DNA of 64,000 bases from Archangium sp. (GTDB lineage Bacteria; Myxococcota; Myxococcia; Myxococcales; Myxococcaceae), in assembly GCA_030695565.1 (NCBI GenBank), contig JAUYRZ010000028.1, forward strand, positions 1 through 64,000. The letters run 5' to 3'. The notes beneath the pieces were generated by a model. That model made no database searches. It had not been told where the DNA came from and saw nothing but the letters and a program-made list of their open reading frames with translations. This document shows, piece after piece, positions 24,085 to 28,771 of this stretch; position 1 is the stretch's first letter; each line of letters starts with the position of its first letter. The translations under genes were made by a program, and so were the position numbers.

Positions 24085-26106
24085 ATGCTTCGTTTCCGCC
24101 TCGGACTGCTGTGTTTCGCCGCCCTCGTCGCGGCGTGCGGCAAGTCACAAACGGCGGAGTGCGACCCGGGGAAGATGTACTCCTGCTACAGCGGCCCCGC
24201 CGGGACCGACACCGTGGGCGTCTGCCGCAAGGGCTCGGCGCTCTGCATGGCGGCCGGCAAGCTCGGCGTCTGCGAAGGCGAGATCATCCCCGAGCGCGAG
24301 CTGTGCGACGGCGATGACAACAACTGCAACGGCCAGGTCGACGAAGGCGTCACCAACGCCTGCGGTGGTTGCACGCTGCTGGAGCACCAACCCGGAGAGC
24401 CCTGTGAACCCTGCGGCACGTACGCCTGTGCGGGCCGCGAGGTCATCAACTGCAGCGGAGGCCGGCTCAACAACTGCGGTCAGTGCAACACCCCCGACGT
24501 GACCGGCCTCAACGCCGCGTGCGTCGGTGAGAACGGGTGCCCCGGCGCGAACGCGTGTCCTGACGCGGGCAGCGACCCGGTGTGCGTGGCGGTGCAGAAG
24601 AACAACTGTGGTGCCTGCGGCGCGACGGCGGTGCCGGGCATCGGCGACATGTGCAACACCGGCGGCTGCGCGGGCACCCTGGCGTGCAACATGGCGGGCC
24701 TGGGCTCGGTGTGTGGAGGCCCCGCGCGCAACAACTGCAACGCGTGCGGCCTGCCGAACGTGGTGGGCCTCGGCCAACGCTGCACGTTGAGTGGACCGGG
24801 CTGCGGCATCAAGGGCTGCAACGCCGCGGGCAGCGACGTCGAGTGCGTGCCCAGCCAGGTGGATCCCGACTCCGATGGCGTGGCAGACCCGTGCGACACC
24901 TGCCCGATGGTGTCGAACCCCGCGCAGACCGATGGCGACGGAGACGGTTTCGGCGACGCGTGCGACAGCTGCCCTGCGGTGGTGAACCCGAATCAGCTCG
25001 ACACGGATCGGGATGGGCGCGGCGACGCCTGTGACAACTGTCTCACCGCCGCCAATCCCACCCAGCTCGACGCCGACAACGACGGCATGGGCGACGCGTG
25101 CGACACCGACGCCGACAACGACGGCGTGCCCAATACGACCGACAACTGCCCCCTGCTCGCCAACGCGAACCAGCTCGATGGCGACGGTGATGGCAAGGGT
25201 GACGCGTGTGACAACTGCGCGCAGGTCGCCAACGCCAACCAGCTCGACGGTGACGGCGATGGCAAGGGCGACGCGTGCGACAACTGCGCGGCGATCGCCA
25301 ACGCTTCGCAGGCCGACGGTGATGGCGATCAGAAGGGCGACGTCTGTGACAACTGCCCTTCCGTGAGCAACACCGCCCAGACGAATGACGACGGCGATGG
25401 CTGGGGAAACGCCTGCGACAACTGTCCTGGGATCTCCAGCACGAACCAGACTGACTTCGACTCGGATGGGCGCGGCGATGCGTGCGACCTGGTGATCTCC
25501 GAGGTGACCGCGGCGGGGCCGGGCGGGGCGGATGATGAGTTCGTCGAGCTCTTCAACCCGTCGAGCCAGGCGGTGTCGGTGGCGGGTTGGGTGCTGCAGT
25601 ACCGCGCTGCGACGGGCGCGAACTGGTCGGCCACCACCTTGTTGCCGGCGGGCGCCTCGATTCCCGCGCGTGGGTTCTACCTGGTGACCTCGGTCGTCAG
25701 CTCGGTGGCCTACACCGGCAGCGCCACGCCCGACTACGTGGCCCGTTCGACTGCGGGCGCCGTGAAGATGCTCGCGTACGCAGCAGCTGGCGGCAACGTG
25801 CGGTTGGGCCTGCCCGGCGCCTCGACGACCCTGGCCAACACCGACCCATCGATCAGCGACACGGTCGCGTACGGTACCGGCATCAACGGAGAAGGCAGCG
25901 CGGCGCCAGTGGGTGCGTGGGGCGCGAGCGGGCCGTACACGGGCGCCTCGATCGAGCGAAAGGCCTCGGCGACCTCGACGTCCGCGACGATGTCGGGAAC
26001 CGAAGCGACCGCTGGCAACGCGCGGGACACCAACGACAACGCCGCCGACTGGGTCACCCGGGCCGCCCGCGAGCCGCAGAACAGCAGCTCGGCCCCCGAA
26101 CTCTGA
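24085..26106 (+). CDS. Surface lipoprotein with MopE-like motif, thrombospondin type 3 repeats and lamin-tail domain
   Basis: A 673-residue cell-surface lipoprotein (lipobox FAALVAAC near the N-terminus). A MopE-like motif ([15 protein letters not shown]) is followed by Cys-rich repeats of the NNCGACG type. About eight thrombospondin type 3 repeats with DGDGDGxGDACDNC calcium sites follow, three of them nearly identical at DNA level. The C-terminal 200 residues form a lamin-tail (LTD) domain ([14 protein letters not shown]). Calcium binding and a role in the outer surface or adhesion are inferred. ATG 24085 was chosen because it directly precedes the signal peptide. Confidence 0.85.
25159..25365 (+). 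repeat. Three 69-bp tandem coding repeats
   Basis: Units start at 25159, 25228 and 25297, an exact 69-bp period. Each encodes a 23-residue thrombospondin type 3 unit with the core [15 protein letters not shown]. Units 1 and 2 are almost identical in protein and close in DNA, while unit 3 has diverged more. This is expansion inside a calcium-binding gene; it is not a CRISPR array because there are no unique spacers. Confidence 0.85.
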
Positions 26107-26165: not shown

Positions 26166-26194
26166 TTGACGTCGAGTTGCGGGGTTGCTAGTAA
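26166..26194 (+). promoter_or_regulatory. Candidate sigma-70-type promoter for the ATPase-nuclease gene
   Basis: TTGACG (26166-26171) and TAGTAA (26189-26194) are separated by exactly 17 bp. The -35 matches consensus at five of six bases; the -10 is weak (three of six). The -10 falls inside the first unit of the 16-bp repeat array, so a protein bound to the array would block the promoter. This is a reading of sequence only. Confidence 0.45.
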
Positions 26195-26248
26195 GCAGGG
26201 TTGCTACTTAGCAATGTTGCTACTTAGCAAGCTTGCTAAGTCAGCGCC
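26185..26248. repeat. Four-unit 16-bp palindromic direct-repeat array
   Basis: Four units start at 26185, 26201, 26217 and 26233 with an exact 16-bp period. Units 2 and 3 share TTGCTACTTAGCAA, a dyad of TTGCTA and TAGCAA around CT. Unit 1 is a variant (TTGCTAGTAAGCA) and unit 4 keeps TTGCTAAGT. Across units 3 and 4 lies a perfect 20-bp palindrome, ACTTAGCAAGCTTGCTAAGT (26222-26241). The array is clearly more AT-rich than its surroundings and ends 7 bp before the ATPase-nuclease start codon. It is a probable protein-binding array (operator or recognition site). Confidence 0.85.
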
Positions 26249-26255
26249 CCACTCC

Positions 26256-27839
26256 ATGTTCTCCGCCAGCACGCCCACCTCGCCCGAAGGCTTCTTCAAT
26301 CGTGCTCGCGAGTTGGCGCGCCTCGAAGATGCCGTCGACAAGTTGCAGCGAGGCGCGCCGAAGTGGCTGTGTCTCGTCGGCCCTCGCAAGGTGGGCAAGA
26401 CCAGCCTGCTGCGCGAGGCCGAGCGCCGCACGCGCGCCAGGGCCCGGGCTCCCGGGTTCGTGGTGGTCGACGTCTTCGAGACGCTCCCGGTGTCGCTCGA
26501 GGTCTTCCGCCACCTCGCGGTTCAGGCGATCGAGGTGTTGCTCTCTCGCGACGCCGGCCGATCACTGGCCGCGGAGTTCGACGTGCCTGCGGCGTGGAGA
26601 GCCGCGCTGGTGCAGTCGAACCGGTTTCGCGGGCTGCCTTCGGCTCTCCAGACGACGCTGGGTGAGCTGCCCACCACGCCCCTCGAGGGCCCCGGGCTGA
26701 CCGCCGTCCTCAACCTGCCCGAGCGGCTTGCCGAGGCGTTGGGCGCGCACCTGGTCGTCGCGCTCGACGAGTTCCAGGAACTCGCTGCGTTGTCGGGGGT
26801 GCGCGGAGGCCCCGACGTGATGTCGCTGCTGCGCAGTGTGTGGCAGCGGCACCGGCGCACCACCTACGTCGTGTCGGGTTCGGCGCGGAGCACGCTGCTC
26901 GAGCTGGCCACCTCGCAGGGGTCGCCGTTCTTTCAGCACTTCGAGGTCATGGAGGTCGAGGCCTTCGACGAGACCCACGCGGTCGAATTGCTCGTGCACG
27001 CCAGCCGTGACACCTCACAGCGCATCGACGAGGCGCTGGCCCGGCGCATCTTCAAGGTGGTGGGGGGCAGCCCGTTCTACCTCCAGATCATCGGAGAGGC
27101 GGTCACCGAGGAGCAGGGCACCGTCGACGCCCGGTTGCGGGGCGCTCTTCAGCGCGCGCTGTTCTCCGAGACGGGGCGGCTCTCGCTCTACTTCTTGAAC
27201 GAGTTTCAGCGGCTGGTGGGCCGCGCCACCACCCTGGCCGCCACGCTCAATGCGCTGGCGCCGGGTCCACGCACGCTGACCGGGGTGGCGAAGAGCATCG
27301 GCGGCGCCTCTGCAGCAGCAGCCGGCTATCTCCAGCGGCTGGGCGACGCGGTCATGCGGAACGCGGAGGGCCAGTGGCAGCTCACCGATGCCACCTTCGC
27401 CTTGTGGCTGCAGTGGAGGCAACCGGGCGGCACCGTCTTGCCGATGAAGCTGGTGGGTGATGAAGCCGAGCTGGCCGTCGCCCAGGCGCTCGCGCACCTC
27501 GGCTTCGAGCTGGTCTACCAATCGCGCGGCTCGCGTGGGGCGTTCGACCTGCTGGCGACCCGCGGTGCGCGGATTCTCGCGGTGCAGGTCAAACGCAGCC
27601 CCTTGCCGCTGCGCTTCACCAAGGCGGCGTGGGGGCGCATGGAGGCCGACGCCGAGCGCTACGGCTGGCAATGGCTCATCGCGCAGGTCAGCCCCGACGG
27701 CGTGGTTCAGCTGCTCGACCCTTCGAAGGCCACGCGGCGTGCGGGGGTGAGCTTGAGTGAGGCCACCGTGATGGAGCGCCCTCTCGATTGGTTGGAGCGG
27801 CGTCAGAGCGCGACCAGGGCGAAGAAGACCCGGCGATGA
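26256..27839 (+). CDS. P-loop ATPase fused to a PD-(D/E)xK-like nuclease domain
   Basis: A 527-residue cytoplasmic protein. Residues 10-270 form a P-loop ATPase of the archaeal-type/STAND-related group: Walker A GPRKVGKTS (42-50) and Walker B VVALDEF with Asp171-Glu172, then the VVSGSARSTL sensor strand. A winged-helix-like segment lies at about 320-400. Residues about 410-480 resemble a restriction-endonuclease fold: GDEAELAVAQAL helix, then Asp431 in AFDLLA and Gln444-x-Lys446 in AVQVKRS, fitting the D-(D/E/Q)xK pattern. An upstream TTG would extend the frame through the repeat array; ATG 26256 is preferred because the ATPase fold begins 10 residues later. It shares a 4-bp ATGA overlap with a LysR gene. 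DNA targeting or defence is inferred. Confidence 0.8.
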   Translation: MFSASTPTSPEGFFNRARELARLEDAVDKLQRGAPKWLCLVGPRKVGKTSLLREAERRTRARARAPGFVVVDVFETLPVSLEVFRHLAVQAIEVLLSRDAGRSLAAEFDVPAAWRAALVQSNRFRGLPSALQTTLGELPTTPLEGPGLTAVLNLPERLAEALGAHLVVALDEFQELAALSGVRGGPDVMSLLRSVWQRHRRTTYVVSGSARSTLLELATSQGSPFFQHFEVMEVEAFDETHAVELLVHASRDTSQRIDEALARRIFKVVGGSPFYLQIIGEAVTEEQGTVDARLRGALQRALFSETGRLSLYFLNEFQRLVGRATTLAATLNALAPGPRTLTGVAKSIGGASAAAAGYLQRLGDAVMRNAEGQWQLTDATFALWLQWRQPGGTVLPMKLVGDEAELAVAQALAHLGFELVYQSRGSRGAFDLLATRGARILAVQVKRSPLPLRFTKAAWGRMEADAERYGWQWLIAQVSPDGVVQLLDPSKATRRAGVSLSEATVMERPLDWLERRQSATRAKKTRR

Positions 27840-28771
27840 AGCTCGAGCTGCGCAGTGATCGGCTGAGGTTGTTCGACGCGGTGGTGCGGCTGGGTGGTTT
27901 CTCGGCCGCCGCGCGGAACCTCGGCCTCACCCAGTCGTCGGTCAGCCAGACCATCGCGGCGCTCGAGGCCGACGTGGGGCAGCCGCTCTTCGATCGCTCG
28001 AGTCGGAAGCTGCGCCTCACTGAAGCGGGTGAGGCGCTCCGCAGCCATGCGACGACGGTGCTCGATGCGCTCGAGCAGACGCGCGCGGCGTTGCAGCAGC
28101 TCGATCAGGTGGTGACCGGAACGCTCGCGCTGGGCGCCACCGATACCCTGGCGACGCACTTGCTGCCGCCGGTGTTCGCTGCGTTCCGTCGTGCCCACCC
28201 GGGGGTGGAGCTGCACCTCGACAACCGCACTTCACCTGCCATCGCCGAGAAGGTGGCGGCCCGGGAGTTGGATCTCGGGGTGGTGTCGTTGCCCCTGCCC
28301 CGCGGCTCGACGGCGGTGGAGGCGCTCACTCAGGTGCCGCTCGTCGAGCAGCGTGACGTGGTGATCGTTCCCCGCGGGCATGTGCTGGAGAAGAAGAAGC
28401 AGGTGCGGTTGCAGGACCTGGCGAAGTTCCCGCTGGTGTTGCTCGATCGCACCACCGCGTCACGCGCCTGGCTCGAGCGGCACTTCGCGATGCTGAAGCT
28501 CAGCCCTCGCGTGGCCATGGAGATGAGCAGCCTGGAGGTGCTCAAACGATTGGTCGAGCTCGACTTCGGGATTTCCGTCGTGCCCGAGCTGGCGGTGAGT
28601 GGGGAGGTCGCGGCGAAGCGGCTGATCGCGTTGCCGCTGGCTGGAGCGGAGCGACGGATGGTCGGCCTGCTCTTGCCGAAGGTGCCGACGCGGGCGGCCA
28701 GCGCCTTCGCTGCGCTGACCCGAAAGGCCCTCACCCCGACCCTGTCCCGAAGGGAGAGGGAGCGCTACTGA
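27836..28771 (+). CDS. LysR-family transcriptional regulator
   Basis: A 311-residue LysR-type regulator. Residues 1-60 are the winged HTH (DAVVRLGGFSAAARNLGLTQ, SSVSQTIAALE), and the rest is the periplasmic-binding-protein-like effector domain. It overlaps the ATPase-nuclease gene by 4 bp (ATGA), so the two are probably translated together. The last 14 codons (ALTPTLSRRERERY) derive from a dispersed palindrome copy and are not expected in the family. The effector and targets are unknown. The stop overlaps the convergent monooxygenase stop by 7 bp. Confidence 0.9.
   Translation: MKLELRSDRLRLFDAVVRLGGFSAAARNLGLTQSSVSQTIAALEADVGQPLFDRSSRKLRLTEAGEALRSHATTVLDALEQTRAALQQLDQVVTGTLALGATDTLATHLLPPVFAAFRRAHPGVELHLDNRTSPAIAEKVAARELDLGVVSLPLPRGSTAVEALTQVPLVEQRDVVIVPRGHVLEKKKQVRLQDLAKFPLVLLDRTTASRAWLERHFAMLKLSPRVAMEMSSLEVLKRLVELDFGISVVPELAVSGEVAAKRLIALPLAGAERRMVGLLLPKVPTRAASAFAALTRKALTPTLSRRERERY
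28728..28761. repeat. Dispersed palindrome family A, forming the end of the LysR gene
   Basis: The 34-bp copy begins CCCTCACCCCGACCCTGTCC and ends GAAGGGAGAGGGA. It matches the copy at 16177-16210 at 33 of 34 positions. It supplies the last codons of the LysR gene and lies between two convergent genes, a typical place for such repeats, where they may act as bidirectional terminators or mRNA-end stabilisers. Confidence 0.8.

Follow-up and report, generated by a model that had tools for sequence, protein, structure and literature searches.

The window (the whole stretch of DNA analysed, 64,000 nucleotides) carries an array of TTGCTA and TAGCAA half-sites between a gene for a thrombospondin-repeat/lamin-tail protein (ending at 26106) and a gene for an archaeal-type ATPase with a nuclease-like tail (ATG at 26256; Table 1). 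As the initial annotation had claimed, TTGCTA half-sites stand at 26185, 26201, 26217 and 26233 at a step of exactly 16 bp, with partner TAGCAA arms. Half-site orientation alternates every 8 bp, and full dyads recur every 16 bp, or 1.5 helical turns. TRF returned a repeat at 26183-26238 (period 16, 3.5 copies, score 77), and a search for TTGCTACTTAGCAA with up to 3 mismatches gave 7 matches in the window against a mean of 0.73 in shuffled sequences, none of which reached 7. The TTGCTA/TAGCAA dyad attributed earlier to the second and third units was recovered as exact TTGCTACTTAGCAA at 26201-26214 and 26217-26230, and the perfect 20-bp palindrome reported at 26222-26241 was confirmed as the last dyad of the array, extended. 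Some details were revised. Arrays in relatives start and finish with complete RCAA-NN-TTGY dyads, so the whole dyad, centred between the units first drawn, was taken as the true unit; and the array stops at 26241, which leaves 14 bp to the ATG at 26256 and not the 7 bp first given.

Table 1. Features of the array, its promoter and the adjoining genes (positions in the window).
Feature	Position	Strand	Remarks
Predicted sigma-70-type promoter, TTGACG-N17-TAGTAA	26166..26194	+	-10 (26189-26194) inside first array unit
Candidate operator-type array, TTGCTA/TAGCAA half-sites, period 16 bp	26185..26241	.	TRF, shuffles, conserved upstream of homologues
Degenerate dyad	26179-26188		
Dyad 1, GCAGGGTTGC	26195..26204	.	
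Dyad 2, GCAATGTTGC	26211..26220	.	
Dyad 3, perfect 20-bp palindrome ACTTAGCAAGCTTGCTAAGT	26222..26241	.	Core 26227-26236
Archaeal-type AAA/STAND ATPase + winged helix + PD-(D/E)XK-like nuclease gene, 527 aa	26256..27839	+	
Codons of predicted winged-helix domain, residues 325-376	27228..27383	+	AlphaFold model; recognition helix 352-365
Codons of PD-(D/E)XK-like domain, residues 398-500	27447..27755	+	Alignments, weak YraN-type matches
LysR-type regulator gene	27836-28771		Start codon overlaps ATPase stop codon

Exact copies of TTGCTACTTAGCAA in the whole 8.5-Mb genome were limited to the two in the array; two further sites with up to 2 mismatches were each isolated and single, and no second such array was found. 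The initial annotation had held that many identical arrays at unrelated loci would speak for a general repeat. None were detected genome-wide, an outcome that favours the finding, and a general genomic repeat was rejected since the array is single in the genome. The nearest relatives of this genome in the collection used were Archangium-like myxobacterial metagenome assemblies. Tandem repeats of 39 and 69 bp at 25068-25356 of the window fall within the part of the upstream gene that encodes thrombospondin type 3 repeats and are ordinary coding repeats.

The ATPase-nuclease matched Pfam AAA_16 and ATPase_2 (PF01637; 47.2 bits against a curated cut-off of 33.2) and was placed in ATPase_2; no match to DUF234 (PF03008) was obtained at E 0.001, and it was left out of that family. 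Walker motifs GPRKVGKTS and VVALDEFQE were conserved across the homologue alignment. An AlphaFold model built from a 29-row alignment (mean pLDDT 88) comprised an ATPase core, residues 325-376 as a winged helix, and a PD-(D/E)XK-like domain spanning roughly residues 398-500. The closest solved structures, by sequence and by structure, were 2QEN (PABY2304; E 4e-14, TM 0.77 by target) and 2FNA (SSO1545), followed in the Foldseek ranking by Orc/Cdc6 and NLR-type proteins. With Walker A and B motifs followed by a winged helix in the same fold, the protein was classed as an SSO1545/PABY2304-type ATPase; unlike SSO1545 and PABY2304, which remain its best PDB matches, it has an added C-terminal PD-(D/E)XK-like domain. 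E405 and Q444 of that domain were invariant in the alignment and D431 and K446 nearly so, and these conserved acidic residues together with the (E/Q)xK pattern (Q444-x-K446) mark the protein as a predicted PD-(D/E)XK nuclease. PADLOC gave a weak partial match to the candidate anti-phage system PDC-S27 (E 8e-6). Homologues were present in 10 of 96 family genomes, with up to three per genome, and also in scattered Myxococcota, Deltaproteobacteria and one Gammaproteobacteria metagenome assembly. Plasmids and viral contigs yielded no relatives, and the phage search returned a single distant partial match; a phage or plasmid element was rejected on these grounds.

Upstream regions of 29 homologues (45-82% identical) were compared, an array being scored as at least two RCAA-NN-TTGY dyads, each with at most 1 mismatch, exactly 16 bp apart and within 120 bp before the start codon. 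Arrays were present in 27 of the 29, against 7 of 8,627 random control windows drawn from these loci, and other dyad spacings from 11 to 24 bp were seen in 0-3 genes each. The motif was clade-specific and fell into at least four classes (TTGCTA, TTGCCA, TTGCCT and TTGTAA); the variants inside arrays were TTGCTA (in the window clade and others), TTGCCAGC, TTGCCTGC, TTGCCTAT, TTGCCACG, TTGCGACT and TTGTAA. Across loci of about 10 kb, dyads of each gene's private motif occurred almost only at the ends of that gene. When 193 genomes of the phylum were searched for tandem dyads of the general form, these were found at ATPase-nuclease genes and in four other places, three of which (G041, G073, G171) proved to have another motif or to be coding repeats, the fourth being at a contig edge (G149). 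The matches in G041, G073 and G171 had no adjoining homologue and were set aside.

A sigma-70-type promoter was predicted over the array in the window, and the overlap with a -10 element described earlier was borne out, the element being TAGTAA at 26189-26194, 17 bp after TTGACG at 26166-26171. The same arrangement was found at loci L041 and L043, and at L042 with a spacing of 16-18; L044 and L045 gave no good match. Sixteen of the 29 genes instead carried TTGNNN-N17-TANNNT with the TTG at -35 to -37 from the start codon (background 6e-5 per position), and in 13 of the 16 a dyad of the array supplied the TTG of the -35 box through its right arm. In two genes of the TTGTAA clade, L058 and L061, TAAGGT at -12 was supplied by the last half-site. 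A TAnnnT element at about -12 would place the transcript start at or beside the start codon, so the mRNAs of this class are predicted to be leaderless or near-leaderless and the array to be DNA upstream of the start point. Overlap of array and predicted promoter was found in 16 of 29 genes and, through the predicted -10, in the window clade. Such overlap of the core promoter in differing ways is the pattern expected of a repressor's operator, judged from promoter predictions; activation would also be possible.

These predicted start points bear on whether the palindromes might act as RNA hairpins in an mRNA leader and not as DNA sites. The window clade would transcribe most of its array if the predicted promoter were used, but the predicted start point of 16 homologues falls downstream of the array, which there gives the -35 box and would not be transcribed; this makes hairpins very improbable. 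An origin- or partition-like site was considered on account of the protein's resemblance to Cdc6/Orc1, a protein with a winged helix that binds repeat arrays next to the gene encoding it, and of the place of Orc/Cdc6 structures directly after 2QEN and 2FNA in the Foldseek ranking. Against it stand the lack of plasmid relatives, the failure to find a clear GC-skew switch at 26 kb, the patchy and dispensable nature of the gene, and the promoter register; this explanation is hardly credible.

An operator role had been proposed in the initial annotation with either the ATPase-nuclease or the LysR-type protein as binder. The role itself is well supported because array and gene are conserved together, because the overlap with the core promoter takes various forms and because the motif co-varies with the recognition helix; the LysR protein did not hold up as binder. 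The LysR gene begins with a start codon that overlaps the stop codon of the ATPase gene, and a LysR gene also adjoins the orthologue in G008, but the array occurs without a LysR neighbour at G009:C535 and in most homologues, and at G010:C6 the interval lacks both array and ATPase gene while the LysR, cytochrome-type and lamin-tail neighbours are present. The LysR gene is dispensable, and a LysR operator was rejected and is given next to no weight. No neighbour gene was common to the homologues, and neighbour orientation was variable (an upstream neighbour was shared by G000, G009 and G011). With no common neighbour, the predicted reader is most simply the ATPase-nuclease itself.

Co-variation between motif and protein was examined at N1, the base after TTGY. 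Residue 357 was R in 12 of 12 genes with N1 = C and N in 3 of 3 with N1 = A; among the 14 genes with N1 = T or G it was G in 9, R in 4 and H in 1. By mutual information with the motif, residue 357 ranked 2nd and residue 354 ranked 9th of 435 variable columns, and both were within the top four columns by share of coincident changes on a tree from which the winged-helix columns had been left out. In the AlphaFold model both residues lie on the predicted recognition helix (352-365). Other columns scored similarly, and the independent-pairs test had too few pairs for significance to be attainable. The co-variation is supportive and short of proof because only about six changes contribute to it, and since four R357 genes read TTGCTA, this single residue does not set specificity alone.

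Taken from the sequence comparisons, the candidate operator-type array is genuine and strongly conserved, and is most likely an autoregulatory site of the ATPase-nuclease. The specific reading favoured here, held at a probability of about 0.78, is that the array is the predicted own operator of the ATPase-nuclease and serves cooperative autorepression. The winged-helix domain would bind RCAA-NN-TTGY dyads, and ATPase dimers placed every 16 bp would occupy the core promoter and keep sigma-70 RNA polymerase from it. Because a 16-bp step is 1.5 turns, adjacent dimers would sit on opposite faces of the DNA and every second dimer on the same face; cooperative assembly at such steps is plausible. 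Dimers would fill the array cooperatively, several adjoining sites would give a steep switch, and exclusion of RNA polymerase would keep synthesis of a potentially harmful nuclease low and self-limited. In most relatives the final array half-site would double as the -35 box of a near-leaderless promoter, and in the window clade the first array unit would contain the -10. Repression as the sign of regulation is drawn from the promoter overlap. Release would follow activation of the ATPase, a change of ATP state or of ligand being the natural guess.

In 8 of 28 homologues (L044, L048, L057, L059, L061, L064, L065 and L066) a second array of two dyads with the gene's own motif was found close behind the stop codon, no more than 30 bp away in seven of them and about 100 bp away in L048. 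In L065 the downstream array was identical to the upstream one over about 34 bp. Downstream arrays did not correlate with neighbour orientation (convergent in 5 of 8 with the array and in about 15 of 20 without), and a tie to a convergent neighbour was rejected. Simple promoter occlusion does not account for these arrays; looping between two arrays, a barrier and mobility are candidates. The downstream arrays of L044 and L066 include the stop codon itself.

The bracketed genes could mean that array, gene and array form a functional unit, in which the ATPase-nuclease bridges or processes the DNA between its private arrays, each paralogue having its own address; the bridging or processing would amount to looping, self-excision or homing. 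This is unlikely, if worth keeping in mind: were it true, the family would consist of one-gene modules, selfish or defensive, that carry their own address, and its protein-DNA code could be read. A related and still more doubtful explanation makes the arrays the termini of a mobile or selfish unit that holds one gene, with the ATPase-nuclease recognising the arrays on either side of its gene and promoting excision, copying or homing of the whole. The usual placing of the downstream array within 30 bp of the stop codon and the identity of the two L065 arrays would fit such ends, as would a genomic context that differs between copies, the patchy occurrence in family genomes and the linking of ORC/CDC6-type NTPases with REase domains to transposon ATPases (PMC10853773). 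However, the downstream array was absent in 20 of 28 homologues; copies within a genome were diverged with different motifs, so recent copying was not seen; target duplications were not seen by eye; G000, G009 and G011 share their upstream neighbour; and no plasmid or viral-contig relative was found. A joined-flank search for an empty site of L065 matched only one flank elsewhere and yielded no clean empty site, and mobility leaves the promoter register unexplained. Assignment to a transposon or insertion sequence was rejected, the second array being confined to 8 of 28 homologues with no near-identical copies, duplications or clean empty site.

Autoregulation through an array is a known kind of system. 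Nuclease-tailed ATPases of the archaeal type are widespread and, to our knowledge, functionally uncharacterised. No operator for the SSO1545/PABY2304 ATPases was described in the open-access papers searched, and no description of such arrays was found in open-access papers, subscription journals being outside the scope of the search; a private, co-varying and sometimes gene-bracketing array in an ATPase-nuclease family seems to be undescribed in the open literature searched. An SSO1545-like ATPase domain, as in the window protein, is found in the promoter-binding transcription regulator IniR of mycobacteria, which differs in having MalT-like and SdiA-like domains, in activating iniBAC and in having no reported nuclease domain (PMC5760070). 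ORC/CDC6-clade NTPase + REase proteins (CR-effectors and prokaryotic relatives) combine an NTPase of the same broad clade with a following REase-fold domain (PMC10853773), a likeness to the window protein in domain layout, by analogy.

If the array is the gene's own operator, ATPase-nucleases would be sequence-specific DNA binders with a known target, and a direct assay and a mutable promoter would be at hand for finding activators. The family would offer a natural code, in which one helix is set against at least four motif classes and paralogues in one genome use different motifs. The own-operator principle may extend to the wider ATPase_2 family, archaeal members included. Bacterial and haloarchaeal ATPase_2 'ATP-binding proteins', often annotated DUF234, likewise have an ATPase, a winged helix and a nuclease-like tail, and inverted repeats are frequent in their promoters, in some cases with a period of 15 bp. 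They differ from the window in usually having one inverted repeat or a 15-bp step and not a 16-bp array, and the window protein differs from those annotated DUF234 in having no PF03008 match.

Promoters of the wider ATPase_2 family were surveyed by simple scoring in a small set. In the genome of the window, the three other ATPase_2 genes (L126, L127 and L129) had inverted repeats or 15-bp-period arrays at their start codons, that of L127 being a perfect inverted repeat of 18 bp; so had many sampled family ATPase_2 genes (L130-L144), with ACTTG-type arrays in L131, L132 and L139. Clearly significant promoter palindromes were found in 3 of 10 plasmid-borne relatives (Protochlamydia, Natrinema zhouii and Mesorhizobium), and that of the plasmid-borne Phocaeicola relative was borderline.

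Several single observations were recorded beside these comparisons. An extra pair of private-motif dyads lies at about -213 and -197 in L050, some 160 bp upstream of its promoter array. A different palindromic array of 16-bp period, TTGTTGCCCAACAA, occurs in two family genomes (L090, G041:C6:258149; L091, G073:C13:66294), with no ATPase of the window kind beside either copy. A two-dyad array GCAAGCTTGCTACGTGGCAAGCTTGC stands at a contig edge in G149 (L085/L097; G149:C345:42-67), a genome in which no homologue was found, and is either a downstream array cut by the contig end or a solo array. Promoter palindromes precede the annotated ATP-binding protein genes of plasmid-borne relatives (L145, L147, L152 and the haloarchaeal L148, L151, L153 and L154), and a short TCATTATCG-TAATCATTA motif near the start codon was spotted by eye in several of the haloarchaea.
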